DNA of 64,000 bases from Bradyrhizobium diazoefficiens (GTDB lineage Bacteria; Pseudomonadota; Alphaproteobacteria; Rhizobiales; Xanthobacteraceae), in NCBI RefSeq assembly GCF_016599855.1, contig NZ_CP067041.1, forward strand, positions 2,976,001 through 3,040,000, in the 5' to 3' direction. The notes under the pieces were generated by a model that did no database searches, had not been told where the DNA came from, and saw only the letters and a list, made by a program, of their open reading frames with translations. Shown piece after piece: positions 12,338 through 28,016 of the stretch. How positions within the stretch are numbered: the stretch's first letter is position 1; each line of letters starts with the position of its first letter. The translations under genes and the position numbers were made by a program.

Positions 12338-13471
12338 ATGTCCCTGGTCTTGACGCTTGCCTCCCGCAATCTCTTCCATGACCGGCTGCGTTTCGTCGCG
12401 ACGATGGTCGGCATCGTGTTTTCGGTCGTGCTGGTGATGATTCAGATGGGCCTGTTCCTGGGCTTCGGTCGCATGGTGACGACCATGATCGACCATGCCT
12501 CCGCCGACCTTTGGGTGCTGCCGAAGGGCGCGAAATGCTTCGAGGATCCGTCACTGCTCGACGCGAAGCTGCGCGACAAGGTCGCGTCCGTTGCCGGCGT
12601 TGCCTCCGTGGTGCCGCTGGTGATCGGCTTTTCCGACTGGCGGCTCGACAGCGGCGAGATGACGCCGGTCTTTATCGTCGGCGCCGATCTGAAGGATGGT
12701 GCACTGCAGCCGTGGAATGTCGACGAGGGTGACGTCAAGGCCCTAGCGCAGACGGGTGCTGTTGCGGTCGATCGCTCCTATTTCGATCGGCTCGGTATCA
12801 ATCGTATTGGGGACACTGCCGAAATCCGCGGCCATCGCGTCAAGGTCGTCGCCCTCACCGACGGCATTCGCTCCTTCACCACGACGCCTTATGTCTTCGT
12901 CGATTTGAAAAACGCGCGGCTTTACACCGGAACGTTTCCCGATCGGGCCAGCGATCTGATCGTCCGGCTCAAGCCGGACGCAGATCGCGGCAAGGTCATG
13001 GAGGCGATCCGCGCGCAGGCAGGCGATGCCGAAGTGCTGAGCTCGGACGAATTCCGCAGCCGCAGTCGTTCGTTCTGGTTGTTCGGCACCGGAGCCGGAG
13101 CGGCACTGTTTGCCGGCGCCCTGCTTGGGGTGATCGTCGGCACCATCATTGTCGCGCAGACCCTTTATTCATCCACCAAGGATCACCTGCCTGAATTCGC
13201 CACGCTCCGGGCCATGGGTTCGTCGAACAGTTACATCTATACCGTGATCATCTACCAGGCACTGATCAATGCGGCGATCGGGTTCGTCATCGCCGCCGGC
13301 ATCGGCTACGTCGTCGTGGAGATGACGGCCAAGAGCGCACTGCCGATCGTGATCACGTCCTGGCTCGTCGCTGCGCTTCTTGCACTGACGATCGTCATGT
13401 GCGTCGCCTCGGGTATCGGGGCGATCGTTCGCGTTGTCCGCATCGATCCTGCCACGGTGTTCATGCGATGA
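12338..13471 (+). CDS. ABC exporter permease, DevC/MacB-FtsX type
   Basis: A 377-residue permease with an N-terminal membrane helix (about residues 20-45), a roughly 220-residue extracytoplasmic domain, and three C-terminal helices that make up the FtsX/MacB_PCD fold. The N-terminus, LASRNLFHDRLRFVATMVGI, is typical of DevC proteins, the permease partner in heterocyst glycolipid and related exporters. GAGGAGC precedes the ATG. It overlaps the ATPase gene by 4 bases (ATGA). DevC systems normally also have a DevB membrane-fusion protein; none is seen nearby. Confidence 0.88.
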   Translation: MSLVLTLASRNLFHDRLRFVATMVGIVFSVVLVMIQMGLFLGFGRMVTTMIDHASADLWVLPKGAKCFEDPSLLDAKLRDKVASVAGVASVVPLVIGFSDWRLDSGEMTPVFIVGADLKDGALQPWNVDEGDVKALAQTGAVAVDRSYFDRLGINRIGDTAEIRGHRVKVVALTDGIRSFTTTPYVFVDLKNARLYTGTFPDRASDLIVRLKPDADRGKVMEAIRAQAGDAEVLSSDEFRSRSRSFWLFGTGAGAALFAGALLGVIVGTIIVAQTLYSSTKDHLPEFATLRAMGSSNSYIYTVIIYQALINAAIGFVIAAGIGYVVVEMTAKSALPIVITSWLVAALLALTIVMCVASGIGAIVRVVRIDPATVFMR

Positions 13472-14202
13472 AAGACGTCATCATCGAGGCCAGAGCTGTC
13501 AAGAAGACGCTTGGTAAAGGCGCGGGAGAGGTGCAGGCGCTGCGCGGCGTCGATCTCGTACTTCGCCGCGGCGAGCTCACGCTTCTGATGGGACCGTCGG
13601 GCAGCGGTAAGACCACGCTGCTCCTGATCCTCGGTTGCATGCTGGCGCCGAGCGCGGGCGTGGTCAACGTGTGCGGCACGTCCACCGCAGATGCCGACAA
13701 GGAAGGGCTCGCCGGCATCCGGCGCGACCATATCGGCTTTGTGTTTCAGTCCTATCATCTGTTCCCGACATTGACGGCGGTGCAGAACGTGCAGCTCGCG
13801 CTCGATATCCGCGGCGAGTACGGCAGGCGCGCGGCCAAGAAGGCCCATGAGGCGCTGAAGCTGGTCGGGCTCGAGCAAAAGGCAACGGCGCCGCCGGGGG
13901 GCCTGAGCGGTGGCGAGCAACAGCGGGTCGCCATTGCGCGAGCCTTCGTCGCCAATCCCTCCGCTATTCTCGCCGACGAACCCACCGCAGCGCTCGACGG
14001 CGATAATGGGCGCACCATCATGCGCATCCTCGCCGATGCCGCGCATCAGCGCGACAGGGCCGTTCTGGTGGTGACCCATGATCCGCGCGTCGTCCCGTTC
14101 GCCGATCGCATCATCCAGATCGAGGACGGCCTTCTGGTCGACGAGAAATCCGGTGGACCGGAGCACCAGCGCATGCCGAAGGCAGCCGCCTTCAGGGCCT
14201 GA
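13468..14202 (+). CDS. ABC exporter ATP-binding protein, DevA/LolD type
   Basis: A 244-residue ATPase with Walker [10 protein letters not shown] (about residue 40), the Q-loop in [13 protein letters not shown], signature [15 protein letters not shown] and Walker [13 protein letters not shown]. It is the energy subunit for the preceding permease, to which it is translationally coupled through ATGA. The MacB/LolD/DevA family supports export or extraction of lipids and peptides rather than import. An esterase gene follows after 17 bp on the same strand. Confidence 0.9.
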
Positions 14203-15375: not shown

Positions 15376-16775
15376 ATGCTGTATCGTCCAGGACCTGCCG
15401 ATTATCGCCCGCCGAGACCGGAGCCCTTGGAGCAACGACCGGGATTGCTGGAGCTTCTCAGGAGGCTTCGGCGCAATCCGCTCGAGTGCTGGAGCGCTGA
15501 ATTCTTCGACCAGCCAATCATTCAAATCAAGCTCCCGTTGATGAGCGCATTTGTCGTGAACGAGCCTGAGGCGACCAGGCGCGTGCTGATGGATAACGCA
15601 GACAAATTACCGCAAAGACCCGATCCAGCGCCGGATTCTGTCTAGCGGTCTTGCGGACGGCCTCTTGAGCGTGGAAGGCGAGCGTTGGCAAACGCAGCGC
15701 CGCATGCTCGCACCCATCTTCGCAAGACGAACGGTGAACTCGTTCGCTGCGGCGATGCTGAATGTCGCCGAGCAGCTCGCGGATGAATGGACCAGGTTGG
15801 GCAACGGAGCGGTTCTCGACATTGCGGCAGAGATGACCCTCATTACCCTCAATGTGCTGGCGGCGACCATCTTCTCGTTCCGTTCAGCCATGAACGCCTA
15901 TCTCGGCGTGATCGGGCGCATAGGTGCGCTCGATCTCCTCGGGCTGCCGCCGGCCATACCGCGACCGGGGGCGCGCGCGCTTGCGACGGACGATGGGGTA
16001 CTTCGAAAGCATCATCGATGAAATCATCGAGAAGCGAAGACGCCGAATGTCGGTCGGTTCGGAACAGCCGAGCGATCTCCTTTCGTTGCTTCTCCGCGCA
16101 CTCGATCCGTCGATCGGCGAGCTGATGAGCCTCGACGAGGTGCGCTCCAATATTCTGACATTCCTATCGGCAGGTCACGAGACCACCGCCAATACTTTGG
16201 CCTGGTCTATCTTCTTGCTGTCGCAATCGCCGGAATGGAGCGCGCATGTGCAGGAGGAAGCCGAACGCGAGCTGGATGGGCCGGTCAATGGTCTTGCGGA
16301 GCGGCTCATCGCGACCAGGGCGGTGGTGGAGGAGGCGCTGCGGCTTTACCCGCCTATCGCCGCGATCAGCCGGACTGCACATCGAGCCGACACGCTCGGG
16401 GATCTGTACGTCAAATCCGGGTCGCTGGTTGTGATCGCGCCATATGTATTGCACCGCCACTGGCGGCTCTGGGAGCGACCCGACGTGTTCGATCCGGCTC
16501 GGTTTCTGCCGGAGGCGAGAAGTGCAATTCCTCGTTTTGCTTATCTGCCTTTCGGTGTAGGTCCGAGGACCTGCATTGGCGCCTCCTTTGCGCTGCAGGA
16601 GGCAACCATCGTTCTTGCCGTTCTCATCCGACGGTTCGACCTGAAGCTCATGTCCAATGCCAGAGTCTGGCCCGTGCAGAAGATCACCTTGCGTCCGGCA
16701 ACTGGCCTGCCGATGCGGGTGGCCTCAAGGGCCGCCAAACAGGCGCGATTGTCCTCGCCCCGATATGTGGGATGA
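15376..16775 (+). pseudogene. cytochrome P450 with two +1 frameshifts
   Basis: Three consecutive frames together give a complete P450. Frame 1 runs from ATG 15376 to about 15605 and stops at 15645. Frame 2 continues with NYRKDPIQRRILSSG and EGERWQTQRRML to about 15975. Frame 3 then carries YFESIIDEIIEKRRRR, the I-helix AGHETTANTL, the K-helix EEALRLYPP and the haem-binding loop FGVGPRTCIGASFAL. Both breaks are explained by one extra base: in the AAA run at 15604-15606, and in the GC-rich run near 15966-15978 that begins with GGGGG. Family substrates are fatty acids or terpenes. Real pseudogenisation and sequencing error in low-complexity runs are both possible. Confidence 0.8.
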
Positions 16776-18261: not shown

Positions 18262-19134
18262 CTAAAGTACCTCGGCCAGCGAATGGCCTTGCAGTTCGAT
18301 GTTCAATCCCTGCATGCCGAGATCGTTGATCTCGCCGCCCATCGCCTTCAGACTTTCCTCCCGGATCAAGGACATCAGGCCGCGGCGCAGCGCCAGGAAT
18401 TCAGATGACATCATCATCGATTGCTGTCGGGGGCGCTCTAAGGGTATCGGGATCTCCGCCTTGATTGAGCCGGGGCGGGCGGTCATGCAGTAGACGCGGT
18501 CCGACAGGAAGATCGCCTCATCGATGTCGTGGGTGACGAACAGCACTGAGATTTTCAGCCGCTGCCACATGTTGGTGAGGATCTGCTGCATGATGACCCG
18601 GGTCTGCGCGTCGAGCGCGCCGAAGGGTTCGTCCAGCAGCAACACCTTTGGGCCCGTCGCAAGCGCACGGACGATGCCGACGCGCTGCTTCATGCCGCCC
18701 GAGAGCTTTTCCGGATAATGCTTCTCGAAAGCGTCTAGGCCCGCGAGCCCGAGCAGCGTGCGCGCGGCGCGCTCGCGCTGCGAGCGCGGCATGCCGCGCA
18801 TCTTCAGGCCGAACTCGACGTTCTCCCGCACCGTCTTCCAGGGGAACAGCGAATATTGCTGGAACACCATGCCCCTCTCGGCGCTGGGGCCGTTCACGCG
18901 CTCGCCGTCAACGGTAACGATGCCCGTAGTCGGCTTGAGGAAGCCCGCGACCGCATTGAGTAGTGTCGACTTTCCGCAGCCGGAGGGGCCGACGATCGAG
19001 ACGAACTCGCCCGGCTTCACATGGATCTGCGTGTCGGTGACGGCCTCAACCGCTCCCTCGATGCTGTCGTAGCTGAGGGAAAAATTCCTGACCTCGACCT
19101 GGCCTTGCGGTGCCTTGGCGACGATCTCGCTCAT
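18262..19134 (-). CDS. ABC importer ATP-binding protein (Tau/Ssu/Nrt type)
   Basis: A 290-residue ATPase: Walker A GPSGCGKST (about residue 50), Q-loop MVFQQYSLFPWKTV, signature LSGGMKQRVGIVRAL, Walker B VLLLDEPFGALDAQTR and switch His in FVTHDIDEA. The family energises uptake of taurine, alkanesulfonates, nitrate or cyanate. The start at 19134 overlaps the permease stop (ATGA) and has GGAGG about 8 bases upstream; an in-frame ATG 12 bases earlier is possible. It is the last gene of a three-gene minus-strand operon. Confidence 0.92.
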   Translation of the reverse strand: MSEIVAKAPQGQVEVRNFSLSYDSIEGAVEAVTDTQIHVKPGEFVSIVGPSGCGKSTLLNAVAGFLKPTTGIVTVDGERVNGPSAERGMVFQQYSLFPWKTVRENVEFGLKMRGMPRSQRERAARTLLGLAGLDAFEKHYPEKLSGGMKQRVGIVRALATGPKVLLLDEPFGALDAQTRVIMQQILTNMWQRLKISVLFVTHDIDEAIFLSDRVYCMTARPGSIKAEIPIPLERPRQQSMMMSSEFLALRRGLMSLIREESLKAMGGEINDLGMQGLNIELQGHSLAEVL

Positions 19135-20039
19135 CTCGACCTCCATGGCATCACCAATTGTCCGGCGCCCCGGATCAACAGGCTTGATCCAAGTCCGAGC
19201 ACGCCGATCGCGATCATGCCGAGCGCGATGTCGGCATACTGGACCAGCGAATAGGCCTCCCAGGTGAAATAGCCGATGCCATATTGGCCCGAGATCATCT
19301 CGGCCGCGATCAGCGATACCCAGGCGACGCCCATGCCGACGGTGAGGCCGGTGAAGATGTGCGGCAGCGATGCCGGGAAATACACCTCGGGGAAGATCGA
19401 GCGTTCGCGGGCTCCGAGACATTGCGCGGCGCGCACCAGCACGGGATCCACCAAGGACATGCCGTGCAGGGTGTTGACCAGGATCGGGAAGAATGAGCCG
19501 AGGAAGGTGATGAAGACGATGCTCTGCTCGTTGGTCGGCCACAGCATGATCGCCATCGGCACCCAGGCGATCGCCGGGATGGGCCGCAGCACTTCGGCGA
19601 CAGGGAAGACGATCTCATGCACCAGCTTGAAGCGGCCCATGATCAGGCCGAGCGGCACGCCACCGATCGCCGCGAGCGAGAAGCCGATGAAGATGCGCCG
19701 GCAGCTCAAGAGCACGTGCAGCAGGAATTTGGGATCGTGGATCGCCTTGGTGAAACTCGCATAGACCGCGACCGGTGAGGGCACGTTGGTGAAGCGCACG
19801 AAGAACACGACGCGGTAAGTCGTCAGCAGATGCCAGACCAGCAGGAAGGCGAGCAGGGAGATGATGCCGATGGCGGTCGCGCGCAGCCGGCCGTGATTCA
19901 GCCGGTACCAGCGTAGTGCGAGCGCGCCGAAAGAGGGCGGTGTGGCCGGAGGCGTGACGGTGGGCAAGGGGCCCGCCTCGGCAATGGCTGCTGGCATGCT
20001 GCTGTCCTCTGAATGTCTGAGGATGGCGGGGCTGCTCAC
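19131..20039 (-). CDS. ABC importer permease (Tau/Ssu/Nrt type)
   Basis: A 302-residue inner-membrane permease with six predicted helices and the EAA-loop sequence RAAQCLGARERSIFPEVYFP that docks the ATPase. The first about 45 residues are a Pro/Ala-rich cytoplasmic arm. The GTG at 20039 overlaps the binding-protein stop (GTGA) and has GGAGG upstream; ATG 19997 also has a GAGGA and is an alternative. It is the partner of the flanking ATPase and binding protein. Confidence 0.9.
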   Translation of the reverse strand: MSSPAILRHSEDSSMPAAIAEAGPLPTVTPPATPPSFGALALRWYRLNHGRLRATAIGIISLLAFLLVWHLLTTYRVVFFVRFTNVPSPVAVYASFTKAIHDPKFLLHVLLSCRRIFIGFSLAAIGGVPLGLIMGRFKLVHEIVFPVAEVLRPIPAIAWVPMAIMLWPTNEQSIVFITFLGSFFPILVNTLHGMSLVDPVLVRAAQCLGARERSIFPEVYFPASLPHIFTGLTVGMGVAWVSLIAAEMISGQYGIGYFTWEAYSLVQYADIALGMIAIGVLGLGSSLLIRGAGQLVMPWRSR

Positions 20040-21457
20040 GTCTTGCCTCCGCCGACTGCCGCTTTTACTGCTTCCTCGAAACCGAGCACCTTGCCGCTGA
20101 TCTTGGCGGCGTAGGCCTCGGCGTCCTTCTTGAGCAGGAACGGCGCGAGGTCGCCATTGCCGACCGCGAAGAAGGCTTGGTCGGCGAACAGCTTGATGCC
20201 GCGGGTGGTGTCGAAGACATAGGCGACGTTGAGCTTCTTGCCCTTCGCTTTGAAGTCGGCGTAAGCCGCTAACGTGCAGGCGGCGGACGAGAACGGCATG
20301 ATGCCGGCATCGTCGACCCAGACCTCGCCCGCCTTGCGCGGATCGGTGATCTGTTTCTTGCAGAAGGCGTCGTCGCCGGTGATTTCATAATTCTTGGTGC
20401 TGCCAAGCTGCGCGTCATAATCGAGCTTCATCTCGGCATAGGCTTTGCGGATGTAGCTGTCGTCGACCCATTTCTTCGGATCGAACTCCTTCATGCGGCC
20501 GAGGTTCTGCAGCACCTTGACATCGGTTGCGGCCGCATCGATCAGTGCCGGCTTGACCGTCGGGTCGGTGGTCATGTTGCCGCTGGGGCCGAGAAAGATG
20601 TAGACGACTTCCTTGTTGATGCCGGTCCATTCCTGGATCTTCTCGGAAGCAAGCTTGGGATCGTCGCGCAGCCACTGATTGGCCGCGATCAGCGCCTTGA
20701 AGTAGGCGACTATGACCTCGGGGTATTTCTCGGCAAAGTCGGTGCGGACGACGATGCCGTGGAAGGTCGGCAGATTGGTCTCCACGCCGTCAAAGATTTT
20801 TCGCGCGTAGCCGCGGAAGGGAAGCAATTCGGCGAAGGGGACGAAGTCGGCATGCGCGTCGATCTTCTTCTCCTGGAGGTTGGTCGAGCCGACCTCGGGA
20901 CTCTGGCTGACGAGCTGGAAGAAATCGGCCGTGTAGCCGCGGTCCTGCATCGCCTTCAACACCATGCCGTGTGCGGCGGAGCCGAAGGGCACGCTGACGA
21001 GCTTGCCCTTGAGATCGGCGAGATCGTAGTAGGGCGAGTCCTTGTGAACAACGATGCCGTTGCCGGAGCCGGACAGGCTGTAGGCGGCAATGCCGATCAG
21101 CCGGCTCTTGCTCTCTGGGTTGCTGTCGAAGGTGAAGCCGTTCACGATCAGCGGATAGTCGCCCATCATGCCGATCTGCAGCTTGTTTGCCATCATCGCG
21201 TTGGTGACGGGCGGGCCTGATGTAAAGTTTTGCCACTCCAGCTCGAACTTGATGTTGGCATATTTGCCGTCTTTTGGCAGGTATTTTTCCAGGAGGTGCA
21301 GCTGGCGGATGACGACGCCCGCCGTCACCGTGTTGGTCGTGGTGTCCTGCGTTCCGATGCCGAGCGTGACGGTTTCCGCTGAGGCCGGCTGCGCCAGGAA
21401 TAGTGCCAGCGACGTCACCGACATCGCGATCGAGAGCGTGGGAAGATGGCGGACCAT
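20036..21457 (-). CDS. ABC substrate-binding protein with NosL-like C-terminal extension
   Basis: A 473-residue exported protein. After a signal peptide (about residues 1-27, ending QPASA) comes an NMT1/TauA-type periplasmic-binding fold (about 30-330: GTQDTTTNTVTAGVVIRQL, MMGDYPLIVNGF, VSVPFGSAAHGMVLKAM). Family members of this type are usually about 320 residues. The extra 120-140 residues (VWVDDAGIMPFSSAA, VAYVFDTTRGIKLF, FLLKKDAEAYAAKISG, KVLGFEEAV) resemble the NosL copper-chaperone fold, especially the DAEAYA...GKVLGFEEA ending. The NosL resemblance is pattern recognition without a search and lacks an obvious Cys-x-x-Cys copper site. The ATG at 21457 follows a GAGG. A CAACTAATCGAC motif lies 84 bp upstream. 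The ligand is unknown. Confidence 0.85.
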   Translation of the reverse strand: MVRHLPTLSIAMSVTSLALFLAQPASAETVTLGIGTQDTTTNTVTAGVVIRQLHLLEKYLPKDGKYANIKFELEWQNFTSGPPVTNAMMANKLQIGMMGDYPLIVNGFTFDSNPESKSRLIGIAAYSLSGSGNGIVVHKDSPYYDLADLKGKLVSVPFGSAAHGMVLKAMQDRGYTADFFQLVSQSPEVGSTNLQEKKIDAHADFVPFAELLPFRGYARKIFDGVETNLPTFHGIVVRTDFAEKYPEVIVAYFKALIAANQWLRDDPKLASEKIQEWTGINKEVVYIFLGPSGNMTTDPTVKPALIDAAATDVKVLQNLGRMKEFDPKKWVDDSYIRKAYAEMKLDYDAQLGSTKNYEITGDDAFCKKQITDPRKAGEVWVDDAGIMPFSSAACTLAAYADFKAKGKKLNVAYVFDTTRGIKLFADQAFFAVGNGDLAPFLLKKDAEAYAAKISGKVLGFEEAVKAAVGGGKT

Positions 21458-21540
21458 TCTCATCCTCATTCGGTTGGATGTGCTGTGGTTGCCATGATTG
21501 GGTGAGGCCACCGGCAGGGCAAATCCGGAATGATGACCGT

Positions 21541-21557
21541 AGTCGATTAGTTGCCGG
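21541..21557 (-). promoter_or_regulatory. conserved motif, site 1 (upstream of binding-protein operon)
   Basis: The minus strand reads CCGGCAACTAATCGACT. It shares AACTAATCGAC with site 2b (22871-22881) and the CAACTAAT core with the other sites in this cluster. It lies about 84 bp upstream of the binding-protein ATG. It is a candidate operator for the Crp/Fnr-type regulator encoded next door; the binding assignment is inference. Confidence 0.5.
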
Positions 21558-21638
21558 GAAAAGTTGATTGCATACTCCTTGGGCAGTCCTGCACGATAAA
21601 GCCGCTTGCCTGCGCACCGGCTTTACTTGCAAATTCTC

Positions 21639-22412
21639 TTAGTCGGATGCGTGGCCGCGCATCTCCTCCAGCACGTCGGCCCGGCACACCACGATCTGCG
21701 AGCGCTTGGTTAGGACGATTCCCTTCTCCTGCATCCGCTTCAAACTGATCGTGACCCACTGCCGGGTGGCGCCGACCATGTGGGCGATGTCGGCATGGGT
21801 GAAGGCGGCCGCAATCACGCGCCCGTCGGCGTCCTCGACGCCATAGAGATCGACGAGATGCAGCAGGAGGTGCGCGAGGCGCTGCGTGATCGAGCGTGTC
21901 CCCAGCATCTGGGCCAGCGCAGAATAGCACTTGCCCTTGAAGGTCAGGCCTTCAATGAGACCGATCGCGAGGTTCGGGATCTCTGCGGCAAGGGATCGCA
22001 ATTCCTTTCCAGGCAGGTGCACCACGCTGCAATTGCTGGATGCGACGCCGGACCATTGATGCGCAGTGCCTTCGAACACTTCGGGCCCGCCGACGAAATT
22101 GCCGACATGCCAGTAGGCGAGCGTAATCTCGCGACCGAGCGGCGAGGTGTAGAACACTCTGATACGGCCGCTTTCGATCAGCCAGATTCCATCGTGCTTG
22201 CCGCCCTGGCTGAACAGCGTCTGGCCGCGGTTCAGCACTTTTCGCCGGCCCTGCTTCAGCACCATTTCGCGTTCCCGCTGGCTGAGCTTGTCCATCAGCG
22301 GCGGCGGGCCGCCGATCCATTGCTGGTTCTCGGTGAGCAGCAACGAGGAACTGCCCGCAGGCCGGACTGCCGGGGAAACACTACCGCGAACCGCATTCGC
22401 CGCCTGCAACAT
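21639..22412 (-). CDS. Crp/Fnr family transcriptional regulator
   Basis: A 257-residue regulator. A cyclic-nucleotide-binding-type beta-roll occupies about residues 40-160 (LNRGQTLFSQGGKHDGIWLIESGRIRVF is its start, spread over positions 55-82), followed by the dimerisation helix and a C-terminal winged helix with recognition segment HADIAHMVGATRQWVTISL. No Fnr-type N-terminal cysteine cluster is seen, so O2 sensing through Fe-S is unlikely. The ATG at 22412 has GGAGG 6 bases upstream. It lies immediately upstream of the ABC operon (180-bp gap) and is the obvious candidate regulator of the surrounding genes. Confidence 0.9.
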   Translation of the reverse strand: MLQAANAVRGSVSPAVRPAGSSSLLLTENQQWIGGPPPLMDKLSQREREMVLKQGRRKVLNRGQTLFSQGGKHDGIWLIESGRIRVFYTSPLGREITLAYWHVGNFVGGPEVFEGTAHQWSGVASSNCSVVHLPGKELRSLAAEIPNLAIGLIEGLTFKGKCYSALAQMLGTRSITQRLAHLLLHLVDLYGVEDADGRVIAAAFTHADIAHMVGATRQWVTISLKRMQEKGIVLTKRSQIVVCRADVLEEMRGHASD

Positions 22413-22482
22413 CGTCTGCCTCCGGAACGTTGAAACCGCTCTTAGGAGGAGCAATGTCCGTGCCAGATGGCGAGGCGGCCGC

Positions 22483-22785
22483 CTACCGCCCCGCCAGGCT
22501 CAGCAGGTACGGCTTGGGGTAAATCCCGCGATTATGGCCGTCAGAGAACGAGATGTTCAGCCCATAGCCGAGATCGCCGATCTCAGTGATGGCGATGCCC
22601 GGAAAGCGCTCGGGGAATCGGCCATCGAAACGGGCGCGGGTGCAGTGGGCGCATTTGCAGGAGAGGCGGAGTCTTTCGGCGGGAACGCTGAGCGCGTCGC
22701 CTTCGGTCGTGCGGACGAGGAGTGTCGCCAGATCGGGGCTTGCCTCATAGTTGGCCACGGTCGGTGCCACCAAGGTCATGGTCAT
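22483..22785 (-). CDS. DUF971 / gamma-butyrobetaine-hydroxylase-like N-terminal domain protein
   Basis: A 100-residue single-domain protein. Cysteines in LRLSCKCAHCTRARF and the final SFSDGHNRGIYPKPYLLSL match DUF971, a zinc-binding domain. The domain is found N-terminal in gamma-butyrobetaine hydroxylases and as a partner of Mrp/ApbC-type Fe-S carriers. With no oxygenase domain attached, a role in Fe-S assembly or as an accessory to the neighbouring Fe-S flavoprotein system is plausible but inferred. The start at 22785 follows GGAGA at 7 bases. It diverges from the ferredoxin-NADP reductase gene. Confidence 0.85.
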   Translation of the reverse strand: MTMTLVAPTVANYEASPDLATLLVRTTEGDALSVPAERLRLSCKCAHCTRARFDGRFPERFPGIAITEIGDLGYGLNISFSDGHNRGIYPKPYLLSLAGR

Positions 22786-22832
22786 GACGAATCTCCGGCT
22801 TCTCTCTACGTCGGCGCGACACCCGCGGATAG

Positions 22833-22843
22833 CAACTAATTGC
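22833..22843. promoter_or_regulatory. conserved motif, site 2 (upstream of DUF971 gene)
   Basis: CAACTAATTGC on the plus strand. Read on the minus strand with its flanks (22851-22829) it matches site 3 at about 18 of 23 positions, including the CTATC after the palindrome. It lies 48 bp before the DUF971 start. Confidence 0.5.
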
Positions 22844-22870
22844 CGACGCGCCACTGCGGGCGAAATGTGA

Positions 22871-22882
22871 AACTAATCGACC
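22871..22882. promoter_or_regulatory. conserved motif, site 2b (upstream of ferredoxin-NADP reductase)
   Basis: AACTAATCGACC, sharing AACTAATCGAC with site 1. It is 37 bp from site 2, in the same divergent intergenic region, and about 76 bp before the reductase ATG. Confidence 0.45.
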
Positions 22883-22957
22883 GGGAATTTCACTTCCGCA
22901 TTGCCGAAGTGCCGTCTCTCCGAAACCTTGTGCGCCATCGAGGGCCAAGGAGACGTC

Positions 22958-23731
22958 ATGAGCGCATTTCAGAAGGAAACCATTTTGTCGGTCAGGCACT
23001 GGACCGATTCCTTGTTCAGCTTCACCGCAACGCGCGATCCCGGCTTCCGCTTCCAGAACGGCCAGTTCGCCATGATCGGCCTCGAGGTCAATGGCAAGCC
23101 GTTGATGCGGGCCTACAGCATGGCCAGCGCCAATCACGAGGAAGCGCTCGAATTCTTCTCGATCAAGGTGCAGGACGGGCCGCTGACCTCGCGTTTGCAG
23201 ACAATCGAGCAAGGCGATATCATCCTGGTCGGCCGCAAGGCGACGGGCACGCTGATCACCGGCAACCTCATTGCGGGCAAGCGCCTGCTGCTGCTCTCGA
23301 CCGGCACGGGCCTCGCGCCGTTCGCGAGCCTGATCAAGGATCCCGACGTCTACGAGAATTACGAGACCATTGTGCTCGCCCATGGCTGCCGCCAGGTCTC
23401 CGAGCTCGCCTATGGCGAGCAGCTCGTCGACGGCCTGCGCGATCATGAATTCTTCGGACCGCTGATCCGCGACAAGCTCGTCTACTACCCGACCGTCACC
23501 CGCGAGTCGTTCCGGAATCGCGGCCGCATCACCGATCTGATCGCCTCGAACCAGCTGTTCGACGATATCGGCCAGCCCGGCCTCGATGTCGAGACCGACC
23601 GCATCATGCTGTGCGGCAGCCCGGCGATGCTCGAGGAGCTCCCCGCGATGTTTTCCGCGCGCGGCTTCGTCGAGGGCAATCACAGCCAGCCCGGCCATTT
23701 CGTCATCGAGAAGGCCTTCGTCGCGCGCTGA
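22958..23731 (+). CDS. ferredoxin--NADP(+) reductase
   Basis: A 257-residue FAD enzyme of the bacterial (Fpr-like) ferredoxin reductase family. It has the FAD-binding motif RAYSMAS (about residue 50), the IKVQDGPLTSRL phosphate-region segment, the nicotinamide-binding LLLSTGTGLAPFASLI, and MLCGSPAMLEELPAM, ending VEKAFVAR-like (VIEKAFVAR). It would pass electrons between NADPH and a ferredoxin. The next genes encode an AprA-like flavoprotein and a two-cluster ferredoxin, so it is likely their electron donor. AAGGAG is 6 bases upstream of the ATG. Confidence 0.92.
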   Translation: MSAFQKETILSVRHWTDSLFSFTATRDPGFRFQNGQFAMIGLEVNGKPLMRAYSMASANHEEALEFFSIKVQDGPLTSRLQTIEQGDIILVGRKATGTLITGNLIAGKRLLLLSTGTGLAPFASLIKDPDVYENYETIVLAHGCRQVSELAYGEQLVDGLRDHEFFGPLIRDKLVYYPTVTRESFRNRGRITDLIASNQLFDDIGQPGLDVETDRIMLCGSPAMLEELPAMFSARGFVEGNHSQPGHFVIEKAFVAR

Positions 23732-23753
23732 GGCGCAAATCGCTTCCTGGCGA

Positions 23754-23764
23754 CAACTAATTGC
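23754..23764. promoter_or_regulatory. conserved motif, site 3 (upstream of AprA-like gene)
   Basis: CAACTAATTGC on the plus strand, within the longer CGACAACTAATTGCTATC context that also occurs, inverted, at site 2. It lies about 71 bp before the flavoprotein ATG, inside the 103-bp gap after the reductase gene. This suggests the flavoprotein operon has its own regulated promoter. Confidence 0.5.
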
Positions 23765-23834
23765 TATCGCCGGAAGGCCCCCTGAACAAAGCTGGTGCGG
23801 AGGCGCCGGTGCGCCGGCGAACCAGGAGCAAGCG

Positions 23835-25583
23835 ATGGCACTAGATCAGATCGTCGACGGACTTTCGGAGGTTTCCTGCGATGTGCTCGTGATCGGTGGC
23901 GGAACGGCCGGCCCGATGGCGGCGCTGAAGGCGAAGCTGAAGAACCCGAAGGCCAATGTCGTCCTACTCGAAAAGGCCAACGTCAAGCGCTCCGGCGCAA
24001 TCTCGATGGGCATGGACGGGCTGAACAACGCCGTCATTCCCGGCTATGCGACTCCGGAGCAGTACACCAAGGAAATCACCATCGCCAACGACGGCATCGT
24101 CGACCAGAAGGCGGTCTACAAATACGCGCAGAACTGCTTTGACATCATCGAGGAGCTCGACAGTTTCGGCATCCGCTTCCTGAAGAACGAGAACGGCGAC
24201 TACGCCGTCAAGAAGGTGCACCACATCGGCACCTATGTGCTGCCGATGCCGAATGGCGAGACCGTGAAGAAGGCGCTGTACCGCCAGCTCCGCCGCGCGC
24301 GCATCCTGATCTCCAACCGCTACATGGCGACGCGGCTGCTGAAATCCCCCGGCGGTCGCATTGCCGGTGCGATCTCCGTCAACACCCGCACTGCCGAAAT
24401 TCTTGTGATCAAGGCCAAGGCGGTGATCCTTTGCATGGGCGCCGCCGGCCGCCTCGGCCTGCCAACCTCCGGCTACATGTTCGGCACCTATGAGAATGCG
24501 GCCAATTCCGGCGACGGCTATGCGATGGCCTATCACGCCGGCGCCGCGCTCGCGAATCTCGAATGTTACCAGATCAATCCGCTGATCAAGGACTATAACG
24601 GCCCGGCATGCGCCTATGTCGCCGGTCCTTTTGGCGCGTTTACGGCGAACAACGAGGGTTCGCGCTTCATCGAATGCGACTACTGGTCGGGACAGATGAT
24701 GCTGGAGTTCTACAACGAGCTGTTGTCCGGCAAGGGCCCGGTGTTCCTCCAGCTGAAGCATCTCCACCCCGATACCATCTCGGAGATCGAATCCACGTTG
24801 CACAAGGTGGAGCGGCCGACGCGCGGCCTGTTCCAGCAGGGGCGCGGGGTCGATTATCGCAACGACTCGATCGAGATGCACATCTCCGAGATCGGCTTCT
24901 GCTCCGGCCACAGCGCCTCCGGCGTGTTCGTCGACGACAATGCCCGCACCACGGTGCCGGGCCTCTACGCCGCGGGGGACATGGCGAGCGTGCCGCACAA
25001 CTACATGCTGGGTGCGTTCACCAACGGCTCGGTCGCCGGCATCGACGCAATGGAGTTCGCCGACAACCATGATGTTGCGGAATTTGATGCGGCCGATGTG
25101 GCCAAGGAACGCGACCGCGTGCTGGCGCCGACCAGGCGCGAGGACGGCATTCCGCCGAACCAGGTCGAATACAAGACTCGCCGCCTGGTGAACGACTATC
25201 TCCAGCCGCCAAAGGTGACGCGCAAATACGAGCTCGGCATGCGCCGCCTCGCCGAGGTGCGGGAGGACATGCAGGAGCACATGATGGCACGCAACGCGCA
25301 TGAGCTTCTTCGCGCGCTCGAAGTGCAGTCGATCATGGACTGCGCCGACATGGCCGTGCATGCCTCGCTCTATCGGGAGGAGAGCCGTTGGGGTCTCTAC
25401 CACTGGCGCACGGATTTCCCGGAGAAGGACGATGAGAACTGGTTCTGCCACACGCTGCTGTCGAAGCAGAACGGCAAGATGACCAGCGAGAAGCGCGCGG
25501 TCGAGCCCTACGTCGTACCAATCGCCGACGACGAGAAGGACCTCTACGACAAGCAGCGCATCCGCATCCGGGCCACCGCCTGA
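23835..25583 (+). CDS. AprA-like FAD flavoprotein (fumarate reductase/adenylylsulfate reductase family)
   Basis: A 582-residue flavoprotein. The dinucleotide fold starts at residue 16 (CDVLVIGGGTAGPMAALKA), the FAD contact is LLEKANVKRSG, and the capping and substrate domain follows (SGAISMGMDGLNN, then GLFQQGRGVDYR). The second FAD half contains GLYAAGDMASVPHNYMLGA. The helical C-terminal domain (about 440-582) and the two-cluster ferredoxin encoded next make it closer to AprA than to succinate dehydrogenase. It is shorter than dissimilatory AprA, and no sulfate adenylyltransferase or QmoABC genes are nearby. The likely role is a cytoplasmic two-electron redox step on an imported substrate; which one is unknown. 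GGAG is 7 bases upstream. Confidence 0.85.
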   Translation: MALDQIVDGLSEVSCDVLVIGGGTAGPMAALKAKLKNPKANVVLLEKANVKRSGAISMGMDGLNNAVIPGYATPEQYTKEITIANDGIVDQKAVYKYAQNCFDIIEELDSFGIRFLKNENGDYAVKKVHHIGTYVLPMPNGETVKKALYRQLRRARILISNRYMATRLLKSPGGRIAGAISVNTRTAEILVIKAKAVILCMGAAGRLGLPTSGYMFGTYENAANSGDGYAMAYHAGAALANLECYQINPLIKDYNGPACAYVAGPFGAFTANNEGSRFIECDYWSGQMMLEFYNELLSGKGPVFLQLKHLHPDTISEIESTLHKVERPTRGLFQQGRGVDYRNDSIEMHISEIGFCSGHSASGVFVDDNARTTVPGLYAAGDMASVPHNYMLGAFTNGSVAGIDAMEFADNHDVAEFDAADVAKERDRVLAPTRREDGIPPNQVEYKTRRLVNDYLQPPKVTRKYELGMRRLAEVREDMQEHMMARNAHELLRALEVQSIMDCADMAVHASLYREESRWGLYHWRTDFPEKDDENWFCHTLLSKQNGKMTSEKRAVEPYVVPIADDEKDLYDKQRIRIRATA

Positions 25584-25614
25584 GCCACCGCACCATAGCA
25601 ATAGGAGACATAAA

Positions 25615-25848
25615 ATGCCTCTCGCGTCCTATCAGACATCGGTTCCGGTGGTCGTCGACGACGCCAAATGCATCGCCGACAAGGGCTGCACCGTGTGCGT
25701 CGACGTCTGCCCGCTCGACGTGCTGCGCATCAGCGACATGACTGGCAAGGCCTACATGGCCTATGACGAATGCTGGTACTGCATGCCCTGCGAGGCTGAT
25801 TGCCCGACCGGCGCCGTCACCGTCAACATTCCCTATCTGTTGAGGTGA
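25615..25848 (+). CDS. AprB-like ferredoxin with two [4Fe-4S] clusters
   Basis: A 77-residue ferredoxin with eight cysteines: C19, C25, C28, C32 and C53, C56, C59, C63. The second set, in CWYCMPCEADCP, has the Trp-containing spacing seen in adenylylsulfate reductase beta subunits (AprB). It follows the flavoprotein by 31 bp with a strong AGGAG, and would carry electrons to its FAD. AprB of sulfate reducers has a longer C-terminal tail that is absent here. Confidence 0.88.
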   Translation: MPLASYQTSVPVVVDDAKCIADKGCTVCVDVCPLDVLRISDMTGKAYMAYDECWYCMPCEADCPTGAVTVNIPYLLR

Positions 25849-25850
25849 TC

Positions 25851-26828
25851 ATGTCGAGCCCGTTCGAATCCTACGACGATCTCGAAGACGCCGACGAGCG
25901 GCTTCAGGCCGCCGATCCCGCCGAGCGCCGCGTCGCCATCATCACACTCGGTCATTCCGGCGATCCCGCGGCCGTCGCCCATCTCGCCAACATGGTCGCC
26001 GATCCCGATGCCGGCGTGCGCCAACAGGTTGCCATGGCGCTCGGCGAATTCGACGGGCCGGAAGCCGCAAGCGCGTTGGTGAAGCTGCTGGTCGACCCCG
26101 AGAGGATCGTTGCGGCAGCCGCGGCGGACAGCATGGCCGAGTTCAAGGATCCTGCCTGCGCCGATATCATCCTGCCTTTGATCAAGCACGCCCACGCCTT
26201 CGTCCGCACGGGCGCGTTGCGGGCGCTCAAGGAGTTGCGGCGCAAGGATACGCTCAAGCCCGCGCTGGAAGCGCTGCAGGATTCCGACGCCGCCGTGCGC
26301 GTGCAGGCGATCGGCGTGATCGGGTTTCTCAAGCTGGAAGAATCCATTCCCGCGCTGACCGCGGCGATCAACGATCCCGACGCCCATGTGCGCCGTGCCG
26401 CGGTGAGTGCGCAGGCGTTCTCGCAGATGAAGTCCGCGGCGGAGACCATCACCCGCGCGTTGAAGGACACCGATTGGATGGTCCGCGAGATGGCTGCGGA
26501 GACGCTCGGTCTCAATGTCAACGGTTCGCTCGCGGCCGATCAGCTCATAGGCTCGCTTGCCGACGAATTCTGGCAGGTACGCCTGAAGGCGATCCGCAGC
26601 CTGGGCAAGATGAAGGTCGAGGGCGCTGTGCGCGCGATCGGCAACTGCATCAACCACGAGCAAGCGAATTTGCGGAAGGAGGCGGCTGCCGCGCTCGGCG
26701 AGATCGCCGTCCCCGAGGGTGAGGCGTACCTCGCGGTGATTGCCAACGATCCAGATCCCGACGTTCGCAAAAACGCGCGCTGGGCGCTCCAGCAGATCGC
26801 CGCGCGAAAGGGGAAGGCAAGGCCGTAG
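25851..26828 (+). CDS. HEAT-repeat protein
   Basis: A 325-residue protein built almost wholly of HEAT/PBS-lyase-like repeats of about 31 residues. Examples are DPAERRVAIITLGHSGDPA, DPDAGVRQQVAMALGEFDG, DSDAAVRVQAIGVIGFL, DPDAHVRRAAVSAQAF and DPDPDVRKNARWALQQI, perhaps nine units. It starts 2 bases after the ferredoxin stop, so it is tightly coupled to the AprAB-like pair. HEAT proteins are scaffolds or lyase-like maturation factors; here a chaperone or assembly role for the flavoprotein complex is inferred from position. No catalytic residues can be named. Confidence 0.9.
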   Translation: MSSPFESYDDLEDADERLQAADPAERRVAIITLGHSGDPAAVAHLANMVADPDAGVRQQVAMALGEFDGPEAASALVKLLVDPERIVAAAAADSMAEFKDPACADIILPLIKHAHAFVRTGALRALKELRRKDTLKPALEALQDSDAAVRVQAIGVIGFLKLEESIPALTAAINDPDAHVRRAAVSAQAFSQMKSAAETITRALKDTDWMVREMAAETLGLNVNGSLAADQLIGSLADEFWQVRLKAIRSLGKMKVEGAVRAIGNCINHEQANLRKEAAAALGEIAVPEGEAYLAVIANDPDPDVRKNARWALQQIAARKGKARP

Positions 26829-26889
26829 GGCGGAGAGGAGCGGGTTCGGTACGGCAACGTAAAGTGCCGTCCGCAAGAGGTTTTCCCGC

Positions 26890-28016
26890 CGTGCGTCGCG
26901 GCGGAGAATTCTCTCGCCGCGCGCGAGGCCTGCAACGCGGTGGTGACGCCGATGTACGAGCAGGCGAGGGCGGAGGCCGATCGTCTCACCATGGAGATGC
27001 GTGCGGGCGAAGCAAAGGGACCGCTCGCCGGCGTGCCCGTCACGATCAAGGATCTTGTCTTCGTTTCGGGTGTGCCGGCCTATGGCGGCTCGCCGATGAA
27101 CAGGACATTCGTGCCCGACATCGATGCTGCGGTCGCCTCGGCGCAAGGCGTCGGGTGCGATTATCACCTGCAAGACGACGACCTGTGAGTCCGGCTACAA
27201 GCTGACGGCGGACAGCCCGGTCACGCGCACGGTCGCGGATGCCGCGCTGATTTTCGAGATCATCGCCGGCTACGATCTGCGTGATCCCGCAGGCCTGCCG
27301 GTCTCGCCGCGCCGCTTCGATACCAACGCCGCTTCGTTGAACGGTATTCGCATCGGTGCGAGCGCCGATCTCGGTTATGCAGCCGTCAGCCCAGATGTCC
27401 GCGCGGCTTTCAATAGGGCGTTGGCCATTCTCGACACTTGCGGTGCGCAGGTCACCATCGATGACCCGGGCCTCGATCCCGCATTCTCGAGCATACGCTG
27501 AAGCCGATCGCTTTCATCGAGCAGGCCGCGGCAGTCGCGACCAAGACTGCTGCCGATGTTGCAAGCTCCGAGCCGGACTATCGCGACGTCGTGACCGCCG
27601 GCCGTCGCTACAGCGGTACTGACTATATCGAAGCCGGCTACCGGCGCGGCCAAACGCGCAACGCCTTTCTGAAACTGTTCGAGCGCGTCGATGCGCTGGT
27701 AACGCCGACCGTCGCGGTGACCGCGTTCGAGGCCGGCGAGCTTGGCGTCGGCACAATCGATGGCAGCAGGGTCGACCCGCATCTCGGCTGGTCGCCGTTC
27801 ACCTGGCCGATCAATCTGGTTGGCCTTCCGGCAGCTACGCTGCCCTGCGAATTCGATCACGAGGGCATGCCGATCCGCCTTCAGATCGTCGCGCCTTGGC
27901 TCGACGAGCCAGCCATCTTCCGCATCGCTGCCGCTTTCGAGCGGGCGCAGCCTTGGTCGAGTTTCTGGCCGTCGCTGGCGCTGCGCGAGAACGGACGGGC
28001 ACGAGCGAAGGGGTGA
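26890..28016 (+). pseudogene. amidase-signature enzyme, decayed
   Basis: Fragments in several frames resemble a GatA-type amidase. At 26940-27188 there is LAGVPVTIKDLVF with the catalytic-type Lys. At 27190-27501, SPVTRTVADAALIFEIIAGYD and DVRAAFNRALAILD. At 27591-28016, NAFLKLFERVDALVTPTV and PINLVGLPAATLPCEF. The part that should hold the GGSSGG Ser-cisSer motif is missing between GSPMNR... and the SGYKLTADSP segment, and the N-terminus is also absent. It is therefore deleted and frameshifted, and non-functional. Confidence 0.8.

Follow-up and report, generated by a model that had tools for sequence, protein, structure and literature searches.

The stretch of DNA analyzed here (the window) comprises 64 kb of the Bradyrhizobium diazoefficiens genome (positions 2,976,001 to 3,040,000 of NZ_CP067041.1), which is a single contig of 7.10 Mb. 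Within it lies a group of nine genes, which we call the cassette, centered on an FAD flavoprotein related to AprA, the FAD subunit of adenosine 5'-phosphosulfate (APS) reductase, and to 3'-phosphoadenosine 5'-phosphosulfate (PAPS) reductase. Four genes on the plus strand encode a ferredoxin-NADP reductase (FNR) of the Fpr type (22958..23731), the flavoprotein, which is predicted to release sulfite (23835..25583; 582 aa), a two-[4Fe-4S] ferredoxin with an AprB core (25615..25848; 77 aa) and a HEAT-repeat protein that is probably a scaffold or partner of the flavoprotein (25851..26828; 325 aa). The gap between the flavoprotein and ferredoxin genes is 31 bases, and that between the ferredoxin and HEAT genes is 2 bases. 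Five genes on the minus strand encode a DUF971/GBBH-like_N protein (22483..22785), a Crp/Fnr-family regulator (21639..22454), and the NMT1-type substrate-binding protein (20036..21469), permease (19131..20039) and SsuB/TauB/NrtD-type ATPase (18262..19146) of an ATP-binding cassette (ABC) importer. The listed frame of the DUF971 gene reaches 22854, but its start is probably near 22785, because the GTG at 22854 is upstream of a predicted operator described below.

All of the genes named in a preliminary description of this DNA are present as open reading frames at the expected place, and profile searches matched their families: PF00005 (4.5e-34) for the ATPase, PF00528 (BPD permease; 2.1e-24) for the permease, PF00027 (cNMP-binding) and PF13545 (Crp HTH) for the regulator, PF06155 (3.5e-12) for the DUF971 protein, PF00970/PF00175 for the reductase, FAD_binding_2 and Succ_DH_flav_C for the flavoprotein, a dicluster family for the ferredoxin, and PF13646 (5.6e-65) for the HEAT protein. 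The reductase scores 136 bits on NF008178 (cut-off 390), and the top NCBIfam matches of the ATPase are SaoA, TauB and NtrCD, each under its cut-off.

Conservation and mobility of the cassette

Conservation beyond one strain had been set beforehand as a test, and a strain-specific oddity is ruled out by at least 593 confirmed loci. The flavoprotein shares 98% identity with its counterpart in Bradyrhizobium sp. LTSP849. Partner genes, called by BLAST of open reading frames with thresholds of our choosing, were counted at three sets of loci: the best 80 of the 593 confirmed relatives, a set that is rich in Bradyrhizobium and in which some loci stop at a contig edge; 19 plasmid loci chosen by hand from match lists; and an even sample of 398 Pseudomonadota genomes. 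At the 80 loci we found the ferredoxin 79 times, HEAT 78, ATPase 73, binding protein 72, permease 71, DUF971 68, Crp 60, ferredoxin reductase 50, the 7Fe ferredoxin FdxA 27 and a GntR regulator 17 times. Where at least 7 kb was available on either side of the flavoprotein center, ferredoxin, HEAT and the whole importer were present at 63 of 68 loci. The proposed tie between an AprAB-like pair and the HEAT protein, reductase, DUF971 protein, regulator and importer is thus widely conserved, and the clustering of these genes is far beyond chance.

In the even sample, 21 of the 398 genomes, our own included, exceed the cut-off of the flavoprotein family model NF006131. At the other 20 loci, the ferredoxin and HEAT genes are each present 20 times, the binding protein and DUF971 18 times each, and Crp and GntR 10 times each. 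The cassette is carried by seven of ten sampled genomes of the host genus (own genome counted) and is therefore an accessory trait. It occurs on plasmids of Mesorhizobium, Sinorhizobium, Rhizobium, Bradyrhizobium, Methylobacterium and Methylocystis, as well as on those of Paraburkholderia, Cupriavidus, Aquabacterium, Acinetobacter, Acidithiobacillus and two cyanobacteria. The gene order is not fixed: rhizobial plasmids have DUF971-flavoprotein-ferredoxin-HEAT-Crp-importer, and Paraburkholderia and Acinetobacter have GntR-flavoprotein-ferredoxin-importer-HEAT-DUF971. A literature search of open-access papers found no account of the cassette. With the phylogeny below, the cassette is a conserved, partly mobile and apparently undescribed probable sulfur system built on a distinct branch of the AprA/PAPS reductase group.

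The flavoprotein and its redox partners

The flavoprotein scores 1060 bits on NF006131 (PRK08275), well above the cut-off of 587. Its closest solved structure is the alpha subunit of the Methanothermococcus thermolithotrophicus PAPS reductase (MtPAPSR; PDB 8a8o, 1.7e-62, 214.7 bits), a protein of similar subunit size, followed by AprA (1jnr, 2.8e-38, 135 bits), SdhA (94 bits) and NadB (86 bits). It does not pass the AprA models (164.8 bits against 641.75 for TIGR02061; 280.7 against 557 for NF005331) or the NadB model (TIGR00551, 128 bits against 452.75). A maximum-likelihood tree of 33 rows groups the family with AprA and PAPS reductase, apart from SdhA, NadB and a candidate AsfA, with support of 100/97; AprA and PAPS reductase form their own group (100/99) on a long branch. 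Outgroup branches in this tree are long and four rows have unusual letter make-up, making its deep order tentative. The flavoprotein accordingly lies outside the characterized clades, as the preliminary description had anticipated. Fumarate reductase, succinate dehydrogenase and L-aspartate oxidase are excluded by the 100/97 split and the model cut-offs. The public name of NF006131, fumarate reductase/succinate dehydrogenase flavoprotein, is unsupported by the tree, and many database entries are probably misnamed.

The active-site residues of AprA were located in 22 family rows by way of an AprA sequence that matches 1jnr at 3.9e-196; this and the other conservation counts come from selected, diverse rows (21 named rows for conserved stretches, 18-26 rows elsewhere). 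In AprA, according to excerpts of PMC2211403, Asn74 and His398 touch the sulfate oxygens near FAD N5, Arg265 and Trp234 hold the sulfate/phosphate, and Arg317 and Leu278 form an adenine clamp; the corresponding reaction in MtPAPSR is taken from part of PMC10322725. At the positions of Asn74 and His398, each of the 22 family rows has N and H, respectively, and His446 and the RSG motif are also shared with AprA. In contrast, Arg265 is uniformly replaced by Leu, Trp234 by Tyr, Tyr95 by Glu and Gly274 by Cys; Lys or Arg takes the place of Glu141 and Ala, Gly or Thr that of Leu278, and Arg317 falls in a gap. Judged from these columns, the part that handles the sulfo group is retained and the part that recognizes the adenylyl phosphate is lost. 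In place of the lost part, the family has its own conserved stretches (21 rows), KVHHxGxYVLPMP, QINPLIKDYNGPxCAYV, CDYWSGQMM and EMHISEIGxCSGHSASGV, from which the cyanobacterial and actinomycete rows depart at a few positions. Overall identity to AprA is 25-26% (rows L026-L033), and the cassette differs further from AprAB in its importer, HEAT and DUF971 genes. MtPAPSR, an assimilatory use of the AprAB fold (excerpts of PMC10322725), keeps Arg265, Trp234 and Arg317, whereas the cassette family forms a separate branch.

The ferredoxin has the eight cysteines that had been pointed out, and these are invariant, together with DECWYCxPC, across 26 ferredoxin rows. Alignment to AprB (3gyx_B, residues 1-65) matches this motif to the AprB CWxCxxC with its Trp kept; in AprB, this Trp sits between cluster I and the FAD (PMC2211403, in part). 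The AprB model TIGR02060 is not passed (32 bits against 135.65), the chain having 77 aa and the model 132 positions. NF010374 is a flavoprotein-HEAT fusion model, of which positions 10-566 match the flavoprotein and 604-896 the HEAT protein, and Nonomuraea has a 940-aa flavoprotein frame without a separate HEAT match. These data suggest that the two proteins form one chain in some actinomycetes, which would imply joint function.

Other genes bear on Fe-S assembly and electron supply. The DUF971 protein is a possible Fe-S assembly helper; in two cyanobacteria, a gene for an Mrp/NBP35 Fe-S carrier ATPase lies 3' of HEAT (L121:13099-14205; L122:12945-14054), which fits such a role. FdxA is found at 27 of 80, two of 19 plasmid and four of 20 even-sample loci, and adjoins the reductase gene in an annotated Methylobacterium locus. 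Four Burkholderiales/Thiobacillus-type loci and Acidithiobacillus have, following the cassette, a gene for a large FAD oxidoreductase (of 1,187 aa in L109), which by eye resembles a fusion of NfnL-like and FNR-like parts; at L107, L109, L110, L112 and L117 it lies near the cassette together with FdxA. This oxidoreductase and FdxA are a possible low-potential electron source in aerobes, and we infer that the electron-supply genes point to low-potential reduction rather than oxidation.

Predicted operator, importer and neighboring sulfur genes

Two exact copies of a predicted operator lie in the cassette, one in the divergent DUF971/FNR promoter (CAATTAGTTGCTATC, 22828..22842, minus strand), at a position kept in related loci, and one about 80 bp 5' of the flavoprotein ATG (CAACTAATTGCTATC, 23754..23768, plus strand). 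Across the 7.1-Mb genome, the longer form, CAAYTARTTGCTATC, is matched perfectly at these two places and nowhere else, and the 10-mer core, CAACTAATTG, occurs twice in the window, at 22833 and 23754. Over all family loci the core occurs 97 times, compared with 0, 1 and 3 times in dinucleotide-Markov copies. The exact core is present at 52 of 73 loci with Crp only, four of six with Crp and GntR, four of 12 with neither and none of 28 with GntR only, that is, at 56 of 79 Crp-bearing loci, many of the operator-positive loci being near relatives. This association suggests that the Crp-like protein is the probable reader of the predicted operator. The 21 Crp-only loci lacking the exact 10-mer, among them rhizobial plasmids, some Methylobacterium and five Rhodobacteraceae-type loci, may use a variant site. 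In Rhodopseudomonas rhenobacensis (L062), a third gene, encoding a TauE/SafE-like exporter (13144-13911), has a site, at 13993.

In the window, GCAACTAATTGC with up to two mismatches gives five matches against 3.15 expected, a number reached by 23 of 100 shuffles, so that only exact operator sites carry weight. Genome-wide, the full-length operator with up to two mismatches has 11 sites, compared with 15 for a reversed control, and the sole one-mismatch site (2414392) has no clear promoter context. A wide regulon was rejected, since full-length exact sites occur only at the cassette.

The preliminary description had called the importer Tau/Ssu-type. This holds for the binding domain, which has a predicted SsuA/TauA fold, and for the permease and ATPase types, but it had missed a C-terminal domain with a NosL fold (about 20039-20377). 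The binding protein falls under the sulfonate family cut-offs (TIGR01728, 114.7 bits against 163.5; TIGR01729, 69.4 against 304.25), and the cassette differs from SsuABC and TauABC in this tail and in having neither SsuD nor TauD as a fixed part. NosL binds copper via conserved Cys, Met and His residues; among 30 sequences of the NosL-fold tail, no Cys, Met or His column is invariant or nearly so. NMT1-type binding proteins among the listed fold matches, to which the fold comparison applies, also carry nitrate, bicarbonate and pyrimidines. A link to Sao, raised by the best ATPase and permease matches, was set aside, both being under cut-off.

Ten loci (L070, L072, L074, L076, L078, L081, L082, L083, L087 and L094) represent one operon type in which genes for SCO, a CC-containing membrane protein and cytochrome c, and in most cases PCu(A)C, stand among the importer and Crp genes.

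Sulfur genes adjoin some copies of the cassette. TauE/SafE sulfite exporter and YeiH/putative sulfate exporter annotations lie directly 3' of it in two cyanobacteria, and the Aquabacterium locus has a TauE/SafE gene. A YeiH-like gene was detected by BLAST bait at 30 of 80, two of 19 plasmid and six of 20 even-sample loci. Its placement takes at least three forms: in Bradyrhizobium it converges on the ATPase gene, in another Bradyrhizobium/Afipia group it separates the DUF971 and reductase genes, and in two Rhodobacteraceae it lies behind the regulator. Genomes have zero to two YeiH genes each (25 searched). Sulfate and sulfonate importers with TauD neighbor the cassette on two Sinorhizobium plasmids, 3-mercaptopropionate dioxygenase and rhodanese genes adjoin a Paraburkholderia copy, and flavin monooxygenase genes lie near copies in Sinorhizobium fredii and Cupriavidus. 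Five oxygenase baits, which would miss dissimilar oxygenases, match at only six of 80, six of 19 and two of 20 loci, indicating that the cassette has no constant oxygenase member of the types represented by these baits.

Proposed function and alternatives

From the gene content and the retained residues, we give an even chance to the prediction that the nine genes constitute a self-contained, horizontally moving sulfur-scavenging cassette that acts on a sulfo compound and releases sulfite. In the proposed mechanism, the SsuA/TauA-like binding protein, permease and ATPase would import an organic R-SO3- compound, while electrons from NADPH would pass to the Fpr-type reductase, in some loci to FdxA, and then to the two-cluster ferredoxin, whose Trp, as in AprB, would bridge to the FAD. 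By analogy with AprA, N5 of the reduced FAD would attack the sulfo sulfur, held by the equivalents of Asn74 and His398, expelling the R group, and the FAD-sulfite adduct would decay to sulfite; the sulfite would enter cysteine synthesis and any surplus would be exported. The HEAT protein may hold or mature the flavoprotein, the DUF971 protein may serve Fe-S assembly, and the cassette-specific Crp/Fnr regulator is predicted to bind the observed CAAYTARTTGCTATC sites and switch the cassette as a unit. Good leaving groups for N5 chemistry are thiolate, amine, oxide and activated aryl groups; on chemical grounds, therefore, plain alkyl sulfonates are less likely substrates than S-sulfo, N-sulfo or O-sulfo compounds or activated aryl sulfonates. 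More tentatively, and with somewhat less than an even chance in our estimation, the flavoprotein would represent a new class, a flavin-N5, ferredoxin-driven reductive desulfonase that arose within the lineage of APS reductases through loss of adenine recognition and retention of the sulfo chemistry.

If such a system exists, aerobes would gain sulfite from organic R-SO3 compounds without O2 and without ATP activation of sulfate. To our knowledge, the assimilatory desulfonation routes of aerobes rely on oxygenases. About 95% of soil sulfur is organic, mostly sulfate esters and sulfonates (PMC4267179, in part), and a widespread, partly plasmid-borne, O2-independent release of sulfite would alter the view of sulfur supply to rhizobia and plants. 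It would also account for a protein family that public genomes mislabel as fumarate reductase, and show recruitment of the AprAB fold out of sulfate reduction.

Several observations weigh against a reductive sulfite-releasing cassette. We know of no precedent for an FAD N5 that reductively cleaves an unactivated C-S bond. The tree gives low support (53/12) to the flavoprotein family as one side of a branch, because the cyanobacterial and actinomycete rows lie close to the root. A sulfonate model explains neither the NosL-fold tail nor why the one operon type carries genes for SCO, PCu(A)C and cytochrome c. Many loci have no other sulfur gene by the baits used, and the YeiH association is restricted: YeiH lies within 10 kb of the flavoprotein in only six of 21 cassette genomes, five of these being of one genus; it is at no named beta- or gammaproteobacterial locus in the locus table; the YeiH gene of the window's own genome is about 179 kb off; and all four of the genomes searched that lack the cassette have YeiH as well. 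Finally, the Asf flavoprotein/ferredoxin pair has been assigned to electron supply for an oxygenase (PMC4267179, in part).

Asf is by design the nearest known system. In excerpts of PMC4267179, AsfRABC of Pseudomonas putida S-313 comprises a binding protein, an ABC importer, a reductase/ferredoxin pair and a regulator, which is of the LysR type there and Crp/Fnr in the cassette, and asfA mutants cannot use aromatic sulfonates. The preliminary description, which knew of no characterized pathway with this set of genes, overlooked AsfAB, itself a pair with an ABC importer. Our comparison covers the pair of Cupriavidus metallidurans, whose AsfA/AsfB are Rmet_4334/5 (PMC2864759, in part). At about 928 kb on its megaplasmid, a 549-aa flavoprotein and a 111-aa dicluster ferredoxin (L164:6882-8863) are encoded side by side, next to an SsuA-type importer; the record is without locus tags, and the pair was taken as AsfAB by its layout. 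This candidate AsfA is about 25% identical to the cassette flavoprotein, reaches only 56 bits on NF006131 and falls with SdhA/NadB in the tree, and the HEAT and DUF971 baits have no match at its locus. Direct orthology to this pair was rejected from the score and the tree position, the candidate AsfAB being of a different flavoprotein lineage. In layout the cassette resembles Asf, and membership in Asf is not supported by the C. metallidurans pair. The candidate pair itself consists of an SdhA/FrdA-superfamily flavoprotein and a dicluster ferredoxin, and its published role in an oxygenase electron chain could be re-examined.

One alternative is that the flavoprotein and ferredoxin merely feed electrons to a separate sulfonate-cutting oxygenase, as proposed for AsfAB with SsuD. 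This is the published view of the asf cluster (excerpts of PMC4267179 and PMC2864759), the flavoprotein, dicluster ferredoxin and SsuA-type importer have the same layout in C. metallidurans, and flavin monooxygenase or TauD genes are close to some copies; however, the bait counts show no oxygenase fixed in the cassette, the substrate-site pattern is AprA-derived, and the flavoprotein does not group with the AsfA candidate. We consider this explanation unlikely, and slightly less probable still one in which the cassette imports thiosulfate, a Bunte salt (R-S-SO3-) or a copper complex of one of these and reduces the S-SO3 bond to thiol and sulfite. Thiolate is a good leaving group for the AprA reaction, and an S-S or copper substrate would fit the NosL-fold tail, the SCO, PCu(A)C, cytochrome c and CC-containing membrane proteins of one operon type, the occurrence of the cassette in Acidithiobacillus and Thiobacillus, and the rhodanese and 3-mercaptopropionate dioxygenase genes beside one copy. 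The tail, however, lacks the invariant or nearly invariant Cys, Met or His columns in the 30 sequences, and SCO is present at only 11 of 80 loci, ten of which are the one operon type.

The substrate might also be free of sulfur, the flavoprotein reducing some organic acid or nitrogen compound brought in by the importer, in keeping with the database name fumarate reductase. The range of NMT1-type binding proteins and the many copies at which the baits find no sulfur neighbor favor this idea, which we nevertheless regard as improbable; the organosulfur substrate of the preliminary description is backed, as regards sulfur, by the SsuA/TauA fold and by the sulfur genes beside part of the copies. 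An ordinary assimilatory APS or PAPS reductase is very hard to credit even though the M. thermolithotrophicus PAPS reductase is the nearest protein of known structure, given that the equivalents of Arg265, Trp234, Leu278 and Arg317 are all gone, that the cassette has a dedicated organic-type importer and that elsewhere in the host genome there are four PAPS_reduct matches, which presumably comprise both CysH and CysD. The same matches and the lost APS-recognition residues bear out the earlier view that this is not ordinary sulfate reduction.

A tRNA scan of the window found none. 3' of the HEAT gene, amidase-like pieces in different frames (26864-28016) appear to be a broken gene, and amidase-like genes adjoin the cassette at other loci too (e.g. 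L064, L078 and L086). On the other side, a cytochrome P450-like region (15665-16775) is split over two overlapping frames and appears to be interrupted or frameshifted.

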